Virus record (IMG/VR): IMGVR_UViG_3300042471_001107
Coordinates: 1 to 34,176 of that record
Origin: a virus
Reading direction: 5' to 3' (one strand)
Length of the DNA: 34,176 bases
In this document: one piece after another, positions 1,914-32,563 of the stretch
How the letters are laid out: each line of letters opens with the position of its first letter
Position numbering within the stretch: position 1 is the stretch's first letter
Made by a program: the position numbers and the translations under genes
The notes under the pieces: generated by a model
Seen by the model: only the letters and a program-made list of their open reading frames with translations
The model's database searches: none
What the model was told of the DNA's origin: nothing

Positions 1914-2104
1914 TCGATGTGAAGAAACTGCAGTACTTGACGATGGCAGAAAGATTGCGTGGCTATGCCGACGGCCTCGAAGATGAGTATGCAGCCAAGT
2001 ACGAAACGCTCATCCATACTCTGAACAAGGCAGCGGACCTGCTTGAGGCGGTGTGGGACGAGCACCTGGAAGAAACGGACGAGAAGGTCGGAGGTACCCA
2101 ATGA
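1910..2104 (+). CDS. Small helical hypothetical protein
   Basis: A 64-residue protein. ATG at 1910 (ATGA overlap, GGAGGG at 1896-1901) is preferred to GTG at 1901, which would sit on the ribosome binding site itself. The protein is almost entirely helical (LTMAERLRGYADGLEDEYAAKYETLIHT is one long amphipathic stretch, about residues 10-37) and acidic at its C-terminus. Coiled-coil or small dimerising roles are possible but unproven. Confidence 0.65.
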   Translation: MIDVKKLQYLTMAERLRGYADGLEDEYAAKYETLIHTLNKAADLLEAVWDEHLEETDEKVGGTQ

Positions 2105-2736
2105 GCTACCTTGTAGCAAGCCTGCCGCCGCTCAAATGCTTTGTGCGGCGCGAATTTCTGTACAACTTTGAAAAGGGGCACGGGGAGCTTGAGCCGGCAA
2201 TCTGGGTCAGCCTCAAGGCTCTCAGGGGGCAGGTATTTCGCATCGAAAGCCTGCTGCCAAACTACGGCGCTCTCTATGACAAGCTGCCCCTGCATGCCTA
2301 CGTGTGGAGGAGAGAAGCGGGGGACTTGCCGATTGACACCCTGCAGCTATGGGACTGCATGAGCTACCGATTCACGGTGGTTGAGAAGATCAACCTGAGG
2401 AACCTGAGCGTGAAGTTTCTTGGCAAGGACAAGCAGTGGCACTTTGGCAAGTACATGTTCACCGTGGACTTCTGCGCCGACGAGATGAGCCTTGACACCA
2501 CGTTCGTTGAGACGGCCGAGGAGCACAAGAGTTTTAACTTCATCCGCCTGGATAACGGTCAGTTTGCCACGCAGCCCAACAATCGCTGCCTCTGGTACGA
2601 CCAGAGCCTGATCCCACTGGATGTCAAATTCCCAGACTTCCAGGCAGCCAAGTACGTCTGGACCGTTGACGGCTCGCGCAAATGGGCCGCTGGCGACGAT
2701 TGGTTTTATGAGATCAATGAAAGAGGAGCCGACTGA
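2101..2736 (+). CDS. Conserved 211-aa phage protein of unknown function
   Basis: A 211-residue protein starting at ATG 2101, preceded by GGAGG and overlapping the previous stop. It is the largest gene of the left cluster. Visible landmarks are LKCFVRREFLYNFEKGHGE near the N-terminus, LQLWDCMSY in the middle, and a C-terminal half with EEHKSFNFIRLDNGQFATQPN, rich in aromatic residues. I recognise the overall pattern as a protein recurring in phages, with no established function. The high conservation of such patterns argues against a junk ORF. It looks soluble, without signal peptide or membrane segment. Confidence 0.78.
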   Translation: MSYLVASLPPLKCFVRREFLYNFEKGHGELEPAIWVSLKALRGQVFRIESLLPNYGALYDKLPLHAYVWRREAGDLPIDTLQLWDCMSYRFTVVEKINLRNLSVKFLGKDKQWHFGKYMFTVDFCADEMSLDTTFVETAEEHKSFNFIRLDNGQFATQPNNRCLWYDQSLIPLDVKFPDFQAAKYVWTVDGSRKWAAGDDWFYEINERGAD

Positions 2737-24506: not shown

Positions 24507-25892
24507 TCACTGAGTCAAATCGTAAAAAGAGATGGAACCTATACCGCCCCCGCTGCCTGCACCGCCTGTCGTTACAACACGCGCTGCCAGCGTAAATGTG
24601 TCACTAACACTTGCTAAAGATGCTCCAAGCTGCAGGTCCCAGTTATAGGCACCCCCTGCGTTTAATGGCACTGGCCCCGATTTACCAGTGGTAAACGTGT
24701 TAATGCAGATTGTTCCACCTGTCATAGCGGAAGCCGTGATGTCGTATTCTGCGTTGGCGTCAGAGGGCACTGCGGTCCATGATGGACTAGTCAAGGTTGC
24801 ATTTTTAATCAGCGCAATTTCGTAATTGTCTGAGGTTGTCGGAAGAAAATTTATTGCTGATGGTATGACAACGGCACCTAAGGCGGTGGATGCCAAGCGG
24901 ATAGAGGCAATAGGATAAAAAGAAGTTGTGATCGTTGAAGCAGAGGTCGCATTAACCCGTCTTGCAACGTGTTCAATTGACGTCTGTTCAAACCCGCCCT
25001 CAGACATCACAGAGCAACATATCTGAGTCAGCGACGCTGCAACTGCTACAGTGGTGGTCGTGATCTCATATCGCACTGGCAAGATGGCAGTCGTCATGTA
25101 GACGGTCGTGCCGTATTCGTTTGCGGTGTCAAAGGTGTGGCAAACAACGTATTGGCCATTGATGACAAAGCCGCAGCGCACCGATCCAACACCCAGCCAC
25201 TCAAAGTCCATCCACATAATCTGCGGGTGGGTCAAATCTAGGGTAAAGCCAGAAGCGCCGGTGCCATCCAGCTTGTCGCCATTCCAGTTTGCTTGCGTAA
25301 CCGCCCTTGAGTCATCCACCGAACCGCTGGTGTAGGACCGCACCACAAACGAGTTGGTGCCAGATGTGCGCTGGAAAAACACGCCGTTTTGCGTGTTGAA
25401 GTACCCAACCTTCTGGTTCAGGTTGGCCGATGTTCCGTTGTCCATGAGGAAGGTTGCAAGTACCAACAGGCCTTTGCCAGGCTGGTACGGGAACGAGCGG
25501 AACGTCTGACGGACCACGGACCCCACACCACCAGCGGTAACAGCCAAGGTGTTACTTGCCTGGTTGGTGTTGAAGGTTACAGAGCCGGTGCCTGATACTG
25601 AGCTATCAAACTGGTTGTCTGATGCGTATCTGTTTTGGCTGTCAAACAGCGTGTAGGGCTGGCTGACGCGCAGACGGCCAAACGCATCCGTGTTGGTGCC
25701 GCCAATTGATACCGGGATTGTTTCCATAGAAGCCACCAATTGACCCAGGATGTTGTCGAGTCGGTTGAAGTACAGACGCAGGACATCAGCAAACTGATCT
25801 TGATACTGCTTCTCATACTCCGTGGGCGCGGTCGGCAGACGAGGCGCAACGACTCGGTTGAGTTCAAACTCTGATGTGACAATTAAGGTCAT
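24507..25892 (-). CDS. Beta-rich tail/virion protein
   Basis: A 461-residue protein whose ATG abuts the TAA of the upstream nozzle-like gene. A helical N-terminus (PTEYEKQYQDQFADVLRLYF, about 23-42; FNRLDNILGQL) is followed by beta-strands: AFGRLRVSQPYTLFDSQNRY, SVTFNTNQASN, RQTFRSFPYQPGKGLLVLAT. This N-terminal helix plus FGRLRVSQPYTLFDS recurs in many phages in the tail region. The rest is Ser/Thr-rich with short strands. Cys-Cys (ICCSV) occurs once. I call it a minor tail protein; no receptor-binding domain is evident. Confidence 0.72.
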   Translation of the reverse strand: MTLIVTSEFELNRVVAPRLPTAPTEYEKQYQDQFADVLRLYFNRLDNILGQLVASMETIPVSIGGTNTDAFGRLRVSQPYTLFDSQNRYASDNQFDSSVSGTGSVTFNTNQASNTLAVTAGGVGSVVRQTFRSFPYQPGKGLLVLATFLMDNGTSANLNQKVGYFNTQNGVFFQRTSGTNSFVVRSYTSGSVDDSRAVTQANWNGDKLDGTGASGFTLDLTHPQIMWMDFEWLGVGSVRCGFVINGQYVVCHTFDTANEYGTTVYMTTAILPVRYEITTTTVAVAASLTQICCSVMSEGGFEQTSIEHVARRVNATSASTITTSFYPIASIRLASTALGAVVIPSAINFLPTTSDNYEIALIKNATLTSPSWTAVPSDANAEYDITASAMTGGTICINTFTTGKSGPVPLNAGGAYNWDLQLGASLASVSDTFTLAARVVTTGGAGSGGGIGSISFYDLTQ

Positions 25893-27824
25893 TTACCGCC
25901 TGCCGTCTGGTTTGACATCAAGTGCAGGAACACCTAACTGCCAGTTGACTCCAAGCCCATCGGAACTGACCTTAAATGCCATCTGTCGACCTCTGAGACG
26001 GGTATACACGATCTGCGTAAATTGCTGCACTGTGTAGTTGCGCTGGCCCGTGTAGTCCTGCGTGCTGGTCACTGTTGGCGTATCGGAAGCACTGTAATCA
26101 GAGCCTGGGTTTTGCCTAGGGCGAAGCGTAAACGTGACCTGAGGGTTGTTGACATACGACCCGTCAAACGTGATGTCAGGGAGCATGCGCCATGCAAAGC
26201 CGTAGTTGTGGCCATCCCCGATGTTGAAGTCGGCAGACTGAATGTAGGACTCAATTGCGCTTGGCGGGTTGGTGCTGCCGTCATCCACGCCACTTTCGTG
26301 ATAGACCAACTGCCCACCGTATCCTGTAGCGGTCGGGTGATTTCTCAATGGCGTATCCAGCCACGCTGTGCGCGACAAATTGCCATACGACCACACGCGC
26401 TCCAAGTGGTTGTAGATGACGTACCTGTCAACCACCGTTGAGTTCGCCGAGCAATAGAACCACCAGACCTCGTTGTAACCCTCATTGGTACTGGCAAAGA
26501 ACTGATACTGCTGAGACAGATTAATATTTCCAAAAATGTATTGCCGCAAGGGGCAGTACAAGGTCTCGACCCGACCAGAGTACATGTAGAACTTATCCAG
26601 CCCCATCCAGTACGTGATGTTGGCAGCGGTGGTAGTGACGTTGGGGCCAGCGATGGAGATGTTGTAGCCCAGAACCTGAAAGCCCCAGATGTACGGTGGG
26701 CCAAGGTACTGCATGGAGTAGATGGCTGCGTCAGTCCAGACCAAAATCTCCTGCCGGGTCTGCTGGTGGGCGACGATGCTCGACCCCGTGGATAGGCGAT
26801 AGCTACCCGCCTGATTGGTTGCAGCGGGGGTCCATGTGGCGTAGTCCTCTTGGTCAGACCAGCGGATCAGCAGAGGGTCCAACTCCACGGCCCCGTAATC
26901 ATTGCATCCAAAAGAAATCACGAATCGCGAGGCATCCGACACCGTGACGGCGTTGGAGACTGTCGGGCAGCCAGAGTCCGTCGTGTAAGGGGGCGAGCTG
27001 GTTGGCGAGAGCAGGACTGCGCGGTCGTAGATCAACGGGTTGGCGTTGACCTTCCAAAGATAAAGCGCGCCGCCACGAGGATTGATGACGAGGTCTTGGC
27101 CGTAATTGGACTGACTCCAAAGCCGAAGCTGTGCCAATGCAGCAGACTGCCCCCAGCCCGTTGAAGCATACCCTGGCGTAGTCCCGCCCCAACCACCAGC
27201 GCCCCAACCAACAACTACTGTGTCGATCTCTTCGCCGGGGTCGATTTGATAGGCAAACGTGGCCGCGCCTGTGGTGCCAGAAGAAGTAGCGGCGGTGGCA
27301 ACCGTGATGCTGTAGGTGTTGGCTGTCAGGTATGTAATGCGGAACTCTTTGTTCAAGTCCGCTGCCGGGATGCCGTTTACCGGCCCCGACACACCAGAGA
27401 TGGTCACGAAGTCGTTCGTAATTGCGCCGTGGGCGGTGTCGTTGATGACGACAGTGGTCAGGCCATTGGTCGTGGTGAAGGCATTGGACGCGATGGTGAC
27501 GGTCTCGCGCAGCGGTGTGATGTCGTGAAACGCCCCGTCAGTGCCGTTTTGAATATAGTATTTGAGGTTGGTCCCCAGACCAAGCAGGTTGTAGCCAGAT
27601 AGGGTGATCCAGTTCCACAGCGCACGGCACACGCCCCAGAAAGAACCAGTGGGCGGCATCAAGCCGCTCGATTGCGCTCCGTTGTCGCGCTCCCAGCCGC
27701 CAAGCTTCTCGGGGTAGCCCGAGCGAAACCGCACCTTGTCCATCTCAAACCAAGTGCCCTCATTGGCGAGGGTGGTTGACTCTCGATTGACGCCTGGGCG
27801 TAGTTGCAGTTTCTGAAGTGGCAT
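25893..27824 (-). CDS. Tail nozzle/hub-like protein (P22 gp10-like outline)
   Basis: A 643-residue protein. ATG 27824 is chosen because it has AGGACG upstream and begins PLQKLQLRPGVNRESTTLAN; a longer frame to 27899 overlaps the endolysin. The start (LRPGVNRESTTLANEGTWFE, then DKVRFRSGYPEKLGGWERD, CRALWNWITL, LGLGTNLKYYI) is typical of beta-propeller-like tail nozzle proteins of podoviruses (family around P22 gp10). Aromatic, Gly-rich beta repeats fill the middle. It should sit below the portal, closing the short tail. Identification is from the N-terminal pattern and from context. Confidence 0.72.
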   Translation of the reverse strand: MPLQKLQLRPGVNRESTTLANEGTWFEMDKVRFRSGYPEKLGGWERDNGAQSSGLMPPTGSFWGVCRALWNWITLSGYNLLGLGTNLKYYIQNGTDGAFHDITPLRETVTIASNAFTTTNGLTTVVINDTAHGAITNDFVTISGVSGPVNGIPAADLNKEFRITYLTANTYSITVATAATSSGTTGAATFAYQIDPGEEIDTVVVGWGAGGWGGTTPGYASTGWGQSAALAQLRLWSQSNYGQDLVINPRGGALYLWKVNANPLIYDRAVLLSPTSSPPYTTDSGCPTVSNAVTVSDASRFVISFGCNDYGAVELDPLLIRWSDQEDYATWTPAATNQAGSYRLSTGSSIVAHQQTRQEILVWTDAAIYSMQYLGPPYIWGFQVLGYNISIAGPNVTTTAANITYWMGLDKFYMYSGRVETLYCPLRQYIFGNINLSQQYQFFASTNEGYNEVWWFYCSANSTVVDRYVIYNHLERVWSYGNLSRTAWLDTPLRNHPTATGYGGQLVYHESGVDDGSTNPPSAIESYIQSADFNIGDGHNYGFAWRMLPDITFDGSYVNNPQVTFTLRPRQNPGSDYSASDTPTVTSTQDYTGQRNYTVQQFTQIVYTRLRGRQMAFKVSSDGLGVNWQLGVPALDVKPDGRR

Positions 27825-27831
27825 GGTCGTC

Positions 27832-28347
27832 CTACGACAAAAAGAGGGCGCGTTCGTCTTTGCGGCGTTTATCCAGCCCTGCCAGCACTTTACCCCCACC
27901 CTTGTTCCAAAGCAAGAAAGCGTCTGCTGCGCCTTCCCAATCGCCCCGGTTTGCTTTCATGCGGATGCTGCTGCGCTGGAGGTTGCCTAACCCGAAATTA
28001 AAGGAAATACTGACCAGAGCGTCAAAGCGGCCTTGACTGCCAACACTGCCGGGCACAAGTCGAAGAACACCACGTTCAAAACTTGCGACATCCGCGTCGA
28101 AGAGATCATTAATTTCCTGCTTGGACCAGACACGGTTGTCCTCCGGTTTCAATGGGTACTCCCTGCGGATCATGGGAATGTCGGCCTGGGTCTTGCCTTC
28201 TGGCCGCATCATCGGCAGGCGAATCTGCTCTTGGTACAGCACATGGCCATAACCAATTGTCCAGATGTGCGCCGGACACAGGTACGGGCGGTTTCTAAAC
28301 CCCTCGTACTTATGCATCAAGTCAGCGCCGACCTTACTCAGTTTCAC
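27832..28347 (-). CDS. Endolysin, GH24 lysozyme (E-x8-C-x5-T type)
   Basis: A 171-residue muramidase that cuts the glycan chains of peptidoglycan at lysis. GTG 28347 overlaps the holin stop (GTGA), which fixes the start; the ATG at 28377 lies inside the holin gene. The T4/P22-type catalytic set is visible: E15 (HKYEGFR), C24 and T30 (WTIGYGH), spaced E-x8-C-x5-T. FDALVSISFNFGLGNLQ (about 108-124) and the basic C-terminus are also family features. An extra segment after GYGH (LPMM, KTQADIP, RREYPLK) is longer than in T4. No signal or SAR anchor is present, so it needs the holin. Confidence 0.9.
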   Translation of the reverse strand: MKLSKVGADLMHKYEGFRNRPYLCPAHIWTIGYGHVLYQEQIRLPMMRPEGKTQADIPMIRREYPLKPEDNRVWSKQEINDLFDADVASFERGVLRLVPGSVGSQGRFDALVSISFNFGLGNLQRSSIRMKANRGDWEGAADAFLLWNKGGGKVLAGLDKRRKDERALFLS

Positions 28348-28847
28348 TTTTTGCCCCAGGTGCGAGTACCAAACCAAAATCCAATAATCCCACCCAACAT
28401 GGCCATTTCGTCGGGACTAAAAATAATGTCCGAGTACCGCAGCACATCATCCATGCTTTTAATCATCCCTGGGTTTGTGTACAGGTAGTAACACAAAAAC
28501 AAATTGATCAGCACCAACTCCAGCACGAAGATATACGTCACGGTTGGGCGCACGGTGCCGACGTAGTTGGCCACCCACTGGCTGGCCCTGTCCAACACCT
28601 TTTCATCGTGCTTGAGCGCAGCTTCTGTCATCTGCGCCTCGGTCTGCATCATCACTTGGTCGGTGCGGATTTCTTCAATCTTCTGCTGGGCGGCGTACCC
28701 TTGAGCAGCCAGAGCCAACTCACGCTCATTTTGCATCCGCGCCAGCGCCAACTCGTGCTTCTGGTCGGCCTTGTTCTGGAAGTATTCAAGCAGCTTGGGC
28801 AGACCGCTGATGAGCAGACCGCCGAGTGTGGAGATAAGTGACAACAT
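28344..28847 (-). CDS. Holin-like membrane protein (GTA holin 3TM type outline)
   Basis: A 167-residue protein with AAGGAAAAT before ATG. An N-terminal hydrophobic helix (SLISTLGGLLISGLPKLLEYF) is followed by a long charged coiled coil (about 25-85), then TVRPTVTYIFVLELVLINLFLCYYLYT (split: TVRPTVTYIFVLELV, LINLFLCYYL) as a strong transmembrane segment, and a C-terminal segment MAMLGGIIGFWFGTR. This outline and the overlap with the endolysin fit a holin that releases the lysozyme; the pattern recalls the GTA_holin_3TM family. Function is inferred from topology and context. Confidence 0.75.
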   Translation of the reverse strand: MLSLISTLGGLLISGLPKLLEYFQNKADQKHELALARMQNERELALAAQGYAAQQKIEEIRTDQVMMQTEAQMTEAALKHDEKVLDRASQWVANYVGTVRPTVTYIFVLELVLINLFLCYYLYTNPGMIKSMDDVLRYSDIIFSPDEMAMLGGIIGFWFGTRTWGKK

Positions 28848-28848
28848 A

Positions 28849-29328
28849 CTATTTTCCTTGTGCCGTGGCTTCCACGATGAACCAAACAGTTGCGCCGATA
28901 ACGACGAGCACCACCAACGCGCCGATCAAAATAATGAACAACTCATCCAACTCCTGCTGCCGTTTCTTTGCGGCTTCTTTTTTACGCCTCGCTGCATGTG
29001 CTGCATCTGCTTCCATCCGCTGCGCCCGAGCCGCAATCCTCATCCAGACATCCATCTTGTTTGCCTGGAAAAACAGCATCTTGATCTGCTCTTCAAACTG
29101 TTTGGCCTGCTCAATGGCCATTTCCAGTTCAAGCGCCTTACCTAACGCGGACCCCTTAAAACCACCCTCTTGCGACTTTTGGACAACCTCGATGGCGTCG
29201 GCTTTGGCATCAAAATATTTACCCAGCACCGGCCCGAGCGAAGTGACATCATCAACCGTTGCGGCAACTTTTTTAACAAGTTCGACCGCTGACGATATAG
29301 CAGCAAGGGCGGTGATCGGGTCGATCAT
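28849..29328 (-). CDS. Lysis-region coiled-coil protein with C-terminal membrane anchor
   Basis: A 159-residue protein starting MIDPITALAAISSAVELVKK. A long charged helical region (about 60-128, with MRIAARAQRMEADAAHAARR) precedes one C-terminal transmembrane segment (IILIGALVVLVVIGATVWFIV, about 131-151). Proteins of this shape are found next to endolysin genes in marine and freshwater phages. It may be a spanin-like or holin-controlling factor, but it has no lipobox or secretion signal. It lies one base before the holin gene. Confidence 0.68.
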   Translation of the reverse strand: MIDPITALAAISSAVELVKKVAATVDDVTSLGPVLGKYFDAKADAIEVVQKSQEGGFKGSALGKALELEMAIEQAKQFEEQIKMLFFQANKMDVWMRIAARAQRMEADAAHAARRKKEAAKKRQQELDELFIILIGALVVLVVIGATVWFIVEATAQGK

Positions 29329-29348: not shown

Positions 29349-30260
29349 TTACGGGGGCTGCTCATTGTTGATATTTTGCCAGTTGGAGTTCTGGCTGTCA
29401 TCTATCCCGGCCCACCCAGGGTTCTGGCTGCTGATGATGTTGACCCAATCGGCGTTTTGTTCATTGACAATCGTCACCCAGCCCCCCACCCTAAAGCTTT
29501 CGGCCAGGACGGCGTTCTCAACAACGGCCACATTAAACGCTGCCGCCACGGTTTGGATGTCGTTGCTGTTGAGATTCTCAACCACGCTGCCCAAGAAGCT
29601 GACAGTGAAAGCCTCAACCGACTCGACCCCAAAATTCTCAATGACGGTGTCAAAAAACGCATTAGCGATTGTGACAATGTCCGCAGCCGTCATCCCCTCC
29701 GTTACAGCAGTGGCAAACTGCGCCGCGATGGCCTGGAAGTCGCTCATCGTCACCGCCTCAGATACAGACTGAGCAAACTGAGCGGTGATTGTGGGTATGT
29801 CGTCTAGGGTGCTGGGCTCTGTGATGGTCTGCACAAATGCCGACTGCTGGGTGCTGGCGTCAGCCACCTCTAAAATGTTTTCTGTGCGAGTCTGGCCAAA
29901 GGCAAAAAATACGTTCTGGGCGTCGGCAAGGTTTGCGTTCTCAGATACCGATTGGGCAAACTGAGCAGAGATGGCTATGGCATCTGCCGGGTTGGAGTTC
30001 TCACTGATAGATTGCAAGAACGTCGAGGCTTGGGCGCTGGCGTCGTTTAGTGTGATGGGTTCGTTGATCGTGGCAATGAACAGTGCGTTGCCCGTGATCT
30101 CAATGTCGCTCTCGGTGATCGGCTCGGTAATGGATTGCAGGAAGGCGTAGGCCTGATTGCTGGCGTCGGCCAACACAATATCTTCCGACATCGAGACGAC
30201 AAAAAGCTGCCCTGCCAGTGAAGCAAAGGGTGTTTGAGCAAAACTGGCAATCCCAAACAT
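29349..30260 (-). CDS. Repeat protein with 12 x 20-residue and 4 x 11-residue repeats
   Basis: A 303-residue protein with an N-terminus MFGIASFAQTPFASLAG. Phe occurs at 20, 40, 61, 81, 101, 121, 142, 162, 182, 202, 222 and 242, each followed six residues later by Glu; the unit reads F-x-x-[ST]-[VI]-x-E with a D about seven to nine residues on. From 261 a Trp repeat takes over (W261, W272, W283, W294; W-x-x-I-x-x-x-Q-N). The regularity suggests an elongated or solenoid fold, as in fibre or adhesin-type proteins. It sits between tail fibres and the lysis cassette. No ribosome binding site is clear; translation may be coupled to the gene before. Confidence 0.72.
   Translation of the reverse strand: MFGIASFAQTPFASLAGQLFVVSMSEDIVLADASNQAYAFLQSITEPITESDIEITGNALFIATINEPITLNDASAQASTFLQSISENSNPADAIAISAQFAQSVSENANLADAQNVFFAFGQTRTENILEVADASTQQSAFVQTITEPSTLDDIPTITAQFAQSVSEAVTMSDFQAIAAQFATAVTEGMTAADIVTIANAFFDTVIENFGVESVEAFTVSFLGSVVENLNSNDIQTVAAAFNVAVVENAVLAESFRVGGWVTIVNEQNADWVNIISSQNPGWAGIDDSQNSNWQNINNEQPP
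29361..30203 (-). repeat. Protein-coded tandem repeats (20-residue, then 11-residue)
   Basis: Positions 29481-30203 encode twelve 20- to 21-residue units with Phe and Glu in fixed register. Positions 29361-29480 encode four 11-residue units led by Trp. The DNA copies have diverged, so unit number is not likely to change by simple slippage. Confidence 0.85.
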
Positions 30261-30266
30261 GGAGCA

Positions 30267-30425
30267 TCAGGTCGGTTCGTCAGCAGGAATGGGTTGGTTG
30301 CCCTCTTCCAGCCATTTCAGGTATTCCTGATAATCGGTGTTGGCGGGGTCAAAGGGGATGAATGCGTTGTCACGCAAACGAATCACAAACTTCATCCCAG
30401 TACCTGAAGTGAATAATTTATACAT
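30267..30425 (-). CDS. Small phage protein (52 aa) between fibre genes
   Basis: A 52-residue frame with GGAG six bases before ATG 30425; the start abuts the fibre gene's TAA. It contains VIRLRDNAFIPFDPANTDY followed by QEYLKWLEEGNQPIPAD. The FIPFDPxNxDYxEYLxWLxxGN pattern is widespread in phage tail regions, at the N-terminus of tail-fibre assembly (DUF4376-type) proteins, here without the C-terminal part. It may aid fibre assembly. It is short but well supported by pattern and spacing. Confidence 0.75.
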   Translation of the reverse strand: MYKLFTSGTGMKFVIRLRDNAFIPFDPANTDYQEYLKWLEEGNQPIPADEPT

Positions 30426-31610
30426 TTATAACTCCGCGCTCATTGATTCTGTTTGGTTATTACATTGAACAAGACCAGCCGCCGCCGATTCGATAGAGGC
30501 ACTTGCAAAGGTTGCGTTTAAACCCAGCAAACCAAGCCCTGCATAAGCGCTTGAGTTGGCCCTGACGTTGGTGTAACTGCCTGTAGTAATTACCGTTCTT
30601 GTAGGTGTTGCTCGCATTGTCACTGGAAAATTTACAGGAATGGTGACAGCACGGATTGTTGCGGCGTTTGCATAGCCTTCAATGGTAAAGTTGGACATCA
30701 CATAGTAGTACCGCTGACACAGAGCAAACTCAGTACCGTAACTACGGAAGTCAAACGATGTGGCAGTAGAGCCGCGCTCCAGTTGGACTCCGGTGATGTA
30801 GAAGGTGGCTCCGGAGTTTGCAATTAAAGAAACAGACCCGCTGGTGCGGTAGTATGTGCCAGCCGTCCACGCACCTGCTGCGGCGTTAAAGTTTGAGCCA
30901 CTACCCGTGTCAAAAAACACATACATTCCAACACCATTGTCAGTCAGCCATGTGCCAGTTGTATCACCAGTTATGGTAACAGTCTTGTACTCAAACGTAT
31001 TTGCGGCATTAACTGTGTATGTAGCAACGTAAGATCGGTTTTGCGCTGAGTTTTGAAAAGCAACTGAATACGTCCCAGTGACTGAGGCCCGGACCCAAAA
31101 CGATAAAGTAAAGGTTACAGCAGATGCGGTGCCCATGCCGAAATCGGACATATTCAGGCCTTCAACAGCCTGATAAAACCAAAACTGTTCTGAAACAGCC
31201 GGACTTTTTGAAGTCGTAACAGTTGTCAGTTTTGAGTTTGTAAATCCAGTTGGTGCAGTCGTTGAACGCTGCACAGTCATTACCGCACTTCCAGCACCGC
31301 CAACGCAGCGGTCATACCAACGATCTAATGTGTAGACCGCTGTATTATTTATCGTTACACTCGCCCCAGCGTTCCTCTGGTCGATCACCATCGCGCCGTT
31401 GATGATGCGGTTCTTGAAGCCAAAGGTATTGGGCAGGTTGGCGGGCTGGGCAAACGTAACAGACTGATCCGTGCCAATCGTTACTGCGGTCGTGGCAGTG
31501 CCACCAGCCGTTGTGGTTTGCAGGGCAAGGATGCCATCATTGGCCCCAGAGGTCTTCAACCCAGCCGATCCGCTGGATACCCCGTTGTCTGAAAGAATCG
31601 TTGCGGGCAT
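30426..31610 (-). CDS. Tail fibre with carbohydrate-binding-like jelly-roll domain
   Basis: A 394-residue fibre protein (GGAG before ATG). The N-terminus (ILSDNGVSSGSAGLKTSG, then GILALQT) is a repeat-type shaft start. FGFKNRIINGAMVIDQRN (64-80) and YTLDRWYD (93-100) open a jelly-roll domain of about 180 residues (FTLSFWVRASVTGTYSVAFQN, then KTVTITGDTTGTW) that ends with FYITGVQLERGSTATSFDFR and CQRYYYV. This is the known outline of receptor-binding fibres of many proteobacterial phages. The last 90 residues could be the tip. It is expected to recognise a cell-surface glycan. Confidence 0.83.
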   Translation of the reverse strand: MPATILSDNGVSSGSAGLKTSGANDGILALQTTTAGGTATTAVTIGTDQSVTFAQPANLPNTFGFKNRIINGAMVIDQRNAGASVTINNTAVYTLDRWYDRCVGGAGSAVMTVQRSTTAPTGFTNSKLTTVTTSKSPAVSEQFWFYQAVEGLNMSDFGMGTASAVTFTLSFWVRASVTGTYSVAFQNSAQNRSYVATYTVNAANTFEYKTVTITGDTTGTWLTDNGVGMYVFFDTGSGSNFNAAAGAWTAGTYYRTSGSVSLIANSGATFYITGVQLERGSTATSFDFRSYGTEFALCQRYYYVMSNFTIEGYANAATIRAVTIPVNFPVTMRATPTRTVITTGSYTNVRANSSAYAGLGLLGLNATFASASIESAAAGLVQCNNQTESMSAEL

Positions 31611-32044: not shown

Positions 32045-32563
32045 TTAACGGAAGATGGCAATAAATACTTGGCTTGTGTCTTCAAGCGTATAGGTGTTAC
32101 CTGTTGTACCGTTATAGCCAGTAATTACGGAAACTGCTGATGTTGATGTAATGCTTGTTGAAATACTTGCATCAGCAGTACTTCCAACACCCACTCGTGT
32201 TCCTGTGACTGCATAATTTGCATCAGGCATTGCAGTCGTAAGGTTTACCGTATAAGTGCCAACACCCCCATCCGTGATGCTCGTCACGTTGCCAGACGCA
32301 CGAATCGCTACAGTGCCGGTGCCGTTGAAGTTGACCCATGCACGGCAACCGTAGGCTGTGGCGACAGAGCCATAGCCCGAGTTGAACTGAAAGTTGCCAG
32401 AGGCATCGAACTCACCAACCTGTACACCGCCTTCTGCAAAGCCAATCCTGTCGGCTCCCGGAAAGTAAATACCAGTGTTGGCGTCAGTCCCCCTGATGGC
32501 AGGAGTAGACGCAGAGCCGTCTACATCAGACAGGCCCGTGTCACCATTAAGAATCAGTGTCAT
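32045..32563 (-). CDS. Short tail fibre protein
   Basis: A 172-residue beta-rich protein (GAGGAGCAACC before ATG). The N-terminal part (GDTGLSDVDGSASTPAIRG, then GIYFPGADRIGFAEGG) is a repeated phage fibre shaft motif. The C-terminal domain starts with CRAWVNFNGTGTVAIRASGN and TYTVNLTTAMPDANYAV, a compact beta domain common in phage fibre tips. It lacks the HxH metal sites of the collar-type gene at 33462. Confidence 0.82.
   Translation of the reverse strand: MTLILNGDTGLSDVDGSASTPAIRGTDANTGIYFPGADRIGFAEGGVQVGEFDASGNFQFNSGYGSVATAYGCRAWVNFNGTGTVAIRASGNVTSITDGGVGTYTVNLTTAMPDANYAVTGTRVGVGSTADASISTSITSTSAVSVITGYNGTTGNTYTLEDTSQVFIAIFR

Follow-up and report, generated by a model that had tools for sequence, protein, structure and literature searches.

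In the triple β-spiral of the adenovirus fibre and of reovirus σ1, a 15-residue repeat with hydrophobic residues at positions c, e, g, k and m and Pro or Gly at position j builds a repetitive β-structured shaft that bears the binding part of the protein and varies in its number of repeats (PMC3150272). The β-bracelet fibre of Orsay virus CP-δ is a pentamer with 8-residue repeats (PMC7565637). Relatives of the protein described here are found in three phage records under differing annotations: gp51 of Venkman (QLF88126.1, Methylophilales phage EXVC282S) as 'putative E3 ubiquitin-protein ligase HERC6', UOF77505.1 of Podoviridae sp. ctXG6705 (MW202481.1) as 'serine-rich adhesin', and WJZ48131.1 of phage DSL-LC04 as hypothetical. 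Venkman, an isolated phage, infects Methylophilales H5P1 (OM43), and its tail looks short in TEM (PMC8163748).

The protein studied here is encoded in the window, the whole 34,176-nucleotide stretch of IMG/VR virus record IMGVR_UViG_3300042471_001107 that was analysed. It is probably a thread-like tail protein, built of a 20- and then an 11-residue unit, in a virus of aquatic bacteria. Venkman gp51 shares with it a cap (MYGLSAFSQSPYSALG), about nine 20-residue β-rich units, a Trp tail and the same place upstream of a stabilisation protein, but the body consensus of gp51 (SISGTATLTADGLRIRFGNA) is without the F/E/D positions, and the two are related through cap, period and tail only. UOF77505.1 has an N-terminus 49% identical over 39 aa, a Trp tail, and a fibre gene and a small protein next to it that are 40 and 78% identical to those of the window, but a different body, with SITATATVTA units (type C). 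WJZ48131.1 combines about 20-residue β-like repeats with a subsequent W..V.DSQ tail in an adhesin gene block, but carries a GWG-rich N-terminus in place of the MFG cap and a body of the type VNVTGVQGTGQVGTATV. The triple β-spiral differs in that the unit of the window protein is 20 residues long with no conserved Pro/Gly (combined Pro and Gly frequency at most 0.20 at any position), and the Orsay virus fibre, with which no sequence relation is shown, resembles it in the regular β repeats of an oligomeric viral fibre but not in repeat length.

Results

The initial annotation had singled out positions 29361-30203 as coding for a protein in which Phe and Glu recur twelve times at a spacing of 20-21 residues and Trp four times at a spacing of 11. 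The range lies inside the repeat-protein ORF (Table 1), where it corresponds to residues ~20-300, and both registers were borne out. Phe occupies residues 20, 40, 61, 81, 101, 121, 142, 162, 182, 202, 222 and 242, at intervals of 20 (nine times) or 21 residues (twice), with Glu six residues past every one of them (unit positions 1 and 7), and the body follows the consensus F-x-Q-S-[IV]-T-E-N-x-T-x-A-D-x-x-T-x-x-A-x. Autocorrelation of the body gave 55 matches at lag 20 against 18.7 expected (z = 8.8), and was also raised at lags 40 and 41. Trp stands at residues 261, 272, 283 and 294, exactly 11 apart. The body repeats are diverged at the DNA level, and TRF detected no DNA tandem repeat at the locus. 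A dN/dS of 0.12-0.27 among close relatives (about 0.16) indicates purifying selection on the protein and, together with a reading frame kept in well over 100 contigs, identifies the ORF as a real gene.

Sequence and profile searches with the window protein gave no Pfam match above cut-off, no NCBIfam match and no PDB match, and in PHROGs only matches at E 0.14 or weaker (scattered values of 1e-4 to 1e-2 for its relatives); the protein thus matched no described tail-fibre family. A tblastn search of INPHARED yielded no match at 1e-5, two weak matches there being supported by architecture, and no relative was found in the bacterial genomes searched. The initial annotation had made its proposal depend on the existence of relatives, and more than 130 distinct complete ones were found: scans of IMG/VR gave more than 300 loci, many overlapping, from which 179 distinct complete viral-metagenome proteins with both the cap and the Trp tail were obtained (132 after clustering at 75% identity). 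We define this MFG-cap family by a cap, a 20-residue array and an 11-residue Trp array in a single chain, all of which the window protein has. Its two repeat types are real, and the architecture, earlier described as unusual, is the defining trait of a widespread family and hence not unusual within it.

The family unit consensus is F-[LA]-Q-S-[IV]-T-E-N-x-T-x-A-D-x-x-T-[IQ]-x-A-x, with F conserved in 85%, E in 99% and D in 85% of 611 distinct units. Among 79 relatives, mean pairwise identity is 0.65 in the cap versus 0.35-0.47 in the units, and the first two Trp of the tail are invariant (79/79). The cap probably serves as an anchor or assembly peptide. Two types of members have other units with the same cap, 20-residue period and Trp tail, namely ETATxxD-type units (L082, L097, L099 and L102) and type C units (L083, L085, L087 and Venkman gp51). 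The family is modular, with one cap and Trp tail around differing 20-residue bodies. The gene is single copy per contig in nearly all cases; one 66-kb contig (G004) carries two differing repeat genes (L013 and L019) and two phrog_3287 genes, one set per end, and reflects either a duplication or the assembly of two phages into one contig.

Table 1. Features of the window discussed in the text, with positions in the 34,176-nucleotide stretch.
Feature	Position	Strand	Basis or remark
Ferredoxin-like protein	2053..2736	+	phrog_3704, E 9e-76
phrog_1645 protein	24507..25892	-	downstream of the phrog_3287 gene
Virion structural protein	25893..27899	-	phrog_3287, family of the ctXG6705 'phage stabilization protein' (P22 gp10-like)
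Endolysin	27832..28377	-	Phage_lysozyme PF00959
Holin-like membrane protein	28344..28847	-	phrog_6637; putative lysis role, from position and hydrophobic segments
Membrane-type protein of the lysis region	28849..29328	-	phrog_32327; often conserved downstream of the repeat gene
Repeat-protein gene, 303 aa	29349..30260	-	only family copy in the window contig
Trp tail, four 11-residue units, residues 261-303	29352..29480	-	W-x-x-I-x-x-x-Q-x-x-x
Body, twelve 20-21-residue units	29481..30203	-	autocorrelation and Phe/Glu register; β-type coevolution
N-terminal cap, residues 1-19	30204..30260	-	MFGIASFAQTPFASLAGQL (starts MFGIASFAQTPFASLAG); best-conserved region
52-aa protein directly upstream of the repeat gene	30267..30425	-	ends IPFDPANTDYQEYLKWLEEGNQPIPADEPT; 78% identical over 37 aa to the ctXG6705 protein adjoining the tail-fibre gene
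Tail-fibre protein	30426..31610	-	phrog_4492; 40% identical to a ctXG6705 tail fibre
Tail-fibre-type protein	32045..32563	-	phrog_11355

In the window, tail-fibre genes stand upstream of the repeat gene, and a lysis cassette and then the phrog_3287 gene lie downstream; Pfam and PHROGs matches agree with the earlier report that lysis genes adjoin it. The order fibre, repeat gene, lysis, phrog_3287 recurs among relatives, where additional genes for fibres, lectin-like proteins or glycine-rich adhesins are often interposed, and in many of them 1-5 kb of other fibre/adhesin genes separate the repeat gene from the lysis genes. The repeat gene is accompanied by a phrog_3287 gene in each of the 25 larger contigs tested, always on the same strand (25/25) and mostly within about 10 kb. 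The ctXG6705 relative sits between lectin-like and gp38-adhesin-like genes and Venkman gp51 between tail-fibre and tail-collar genes, and a location in the tail-fibre module was found for the window and for every annotated relative examined.

The 52-aa protein is highly conserved beside fibre genes and is possibly a fibre-assembly factor. Of the phrog_1645 protein, most of the 11 relatives tested (G001-G011) retain the first 55-60 residues downstream of phrog_3287, often without conservation of the remainder, so that it looks like an anchor domain with exchangeable bodies; in one contig (G006, carrying L034) the N-terminus and the middle of this protein have their matches in two genes 18 kb apart, as though the body had been transferred to a different carrier. 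The ferredoxin-like protein is a possible auxiliary metabolic gene.

The body arrays are quantised in length across relatives, which was unexpected. The number of units, read from the position of the first tail Trp, is a multiple of four in 107 of 132 non-redundant members, with 4 units in one member, 8 in eight, 12 in 80, 16 in twelve, 20 in five and 28 in one; after 50% clustering with twelve-unit members excluded, 18/31 are multiples of four. On a maximum-likelihood tree of 124 members, built from array flanks that are short and repetitive, unit number changed at least 33 times, but only 9 times modulo 4, compared with 30 modulo 3 and 29 modulo 5, and a second tree gave 32, 9, 26 and 29 changes, respectively. 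The 33 reconstructed steps comprise 18.9 of four units, 2.5 of eight and 3.0 of one. Seven nearest-relative pairs differ by single clean gaps of 80-81 residues at differing sites (residues 154, 150, 184, 131, 66, 245 and 81). When repeat numbers were assigned to four classes at random, about 8 of 300 draws needed no more than 9 changes; as few repeat numbers dominate, this null is a weak test, and modulo 3, modulo 5 and the step sizes are therefore the better controls.

The step of four is kept in a 9/13-unit clade whose counts are not multiples of four, and pairs with 6/10 and 11/15 units likewise hold their own phase. Exceptions have 11, 14, 17 and 23 units, and the type C proteins L083 and L087 differ by three units; given these exceptions (L330, L270, L158, L170, L180/L182 and type C), the four-unit rule is a strong tendency and not absolute. 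Trp tails have 2, 3, 4, 6 or 12 units, never 5, and the number of Trp units changed 38 times on the tree but 9 times modulo 2, with 27.3 steps of two, a pair rule that could reflect paired strands. The largest Trp tail, of twelve units, belongs to L330 (G019), whose 23-unit body is the one clear large exception to fours. No report of quantised fibre repeats was found in the open-access literature.

Coevolution was pooled over 1,493 unit-pair windows (effective number 1,161). Mean coupling z at separations 1, 2, 3 and 4 was 1.62, 2.45, 0.70 and 0.46, the strongest couplings chain unit positions 13-15-17-19-1-3-5-7, and the pattern was seen again in six-unit windows. The peak at i,i+2 is the alternation of β strands and points to a β-structured unit; in an α helix, separations 3 and 4 should lead. 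A multi-chain β fibre would be the natural reading of this signature. Units k and k+4 gave no coevolution signal, leaving the four-unit step without contact-level support and direct contact between them unsupported; weak same-position couplings at all lags are probably due to homogenisation of copies. Pentapeptide-repeat β-helices have 20 residues per coil and an A(D/N)LXX-type motif at every fifth residue, and this fold was rejected as the conserved F1, E7 and D13 lack a five-residue period. Whole-chain structure prediction, proposed in the initial annotation as a check, was run twice with AlphaFold2 on the monomer and produced no confident fold: a shallow alignment gave a helical model (pLDDT 34), and a deeper one removed nearly all helix (pLDDT 46). 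Such low-confidence models could equally mean disorder or poor alignments, and failure of the monomer to fold, as expected of an obligate oligomer, is weak evidence for one.

Discussion

The repeat protein is probably a β-structured, oligomeric component of a tail fibre or adhesin. More specifically, and with moderate confidence, we regard it as a minor, single-copy tail-fibre or adhesin part of a short-tailed phage with a P22-type tail, with a cap anchor, a β shaft, a distal Trp tail and a length that changes in steps. As part of the virion, it would be anchored, or its assembly started, by the cap; the 20-residue units would make up a long β shaft whose folding takes several chains, probably three identical ones in a homotrimer; and the distal end, in contact with the host surface, would be the Trp tail. 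The length of the shaft is constrained, in that its units are gained or lost mostly four at a time (80 residues) and those of the Trp tail mostly two at a time (22 residues). As the simplest cause, the orientation of a helical shaft would recur every four units, e.g. in a three-fold fibre with each unit turned by 30 degrees.

Among the roles first suggested, a fibre or adhesive filament fits best, in view of the tail-fibre/adhesin island in the window and annotated relatives and the β-type coevolution, and nothing points to a decoration protein. A head decoration or head-fibre protein, whose cap would bind the capsid with the repeats projecting, is improbable: the gene is late and of structural type, and its single copy is compatible with a head or a tail part, but the tail-fibre block encloses it in ctXG6705 and Venkman, with several genes between it and the capsid gene, and its constant proximity to the phrog_3287 gene again favours the tail block. 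Slightly less probable still is a non-virion protein of late infection acting, e.g. in superinfection exclusion or lysis timing. The membrane and lysis genes immediately downstream would suit such a role, but inspection of the sequence by eye shows neither a signal peptide nor a transmembrane segment, many relatives have fibre/adhesin genes in between, and the annotated holin of Venkman is about 9 kb from gp51.

For the tail-fibre reading, the cause of the four-unit step is a further matter. We tentatively suggest, as one possible explanation, that units are gained and lost almost only in fours, and Trp units in twos, under a phase rule set by a fixed rotational relation between the ends of a twisted oligomeric shaft; a rotational-phase constraint of this kind would explain the body rule. 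That the steps are instead a by-product of DNA duplication mechanics, and not of selection on the protein, appears unlikely. Of 78 twelve-unit genes, 8 do have exact 14-base repeats at the four-unit lag and 4 more have them at a near-lag, and in the L196 protein the inserted 80 residues look like a tandem duplicate of the adjoining stretch, but exact one-unit repeats are at least as common (12/78), yet net one-unit changes are rare. Protein identity at lag 80 is not above that at lags 20-60, nor is DNA identity at lag 240 (0.422) above that at lag 60 (0.438); a general 80-residue super-repeat as the cause of the step is not supported by these values, and simple copy misalignment should therefore favour smaller steps. 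The quantum would also follow if the repeats were α-helical, with one helix per 20 residues and four units forming a four-helix bundle. The helical shallow-alignment model and the hydrophobic moment of the averaged unit, which favours 100 degrees in part of the unit, agree with this, but the reading is improbable in view of the i,i+2 coupling peak of two analyses, the loss of helix with the deeper alignment, and the type C bodies, whose Thr/Val/Ile-alternating sequence is β-like within the same cap and tail.

Conclusions

Host range is influenced by fibre length and receptor reach, yet the lengthening of a shaft is rarely visible. In the MFG-cap family, natural length variants are numerous and fall on a discrete ladder; most come from uncultured phages and one relative is cultured, and shaft twist and the cause of the step are therefore directly testable. 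Proteins that now bear the annotation 'E3 ubiquitin ligase' or 'serine-rich adhesin' also acquire a probable role through this family. The changes of four units at a time, and of two in the tail, suggest a hidden structural rule for fibre length; if true, the phase rule would allow fibre twist to be read from sequence and would define a discrete ladder of allowed fibre lengths.
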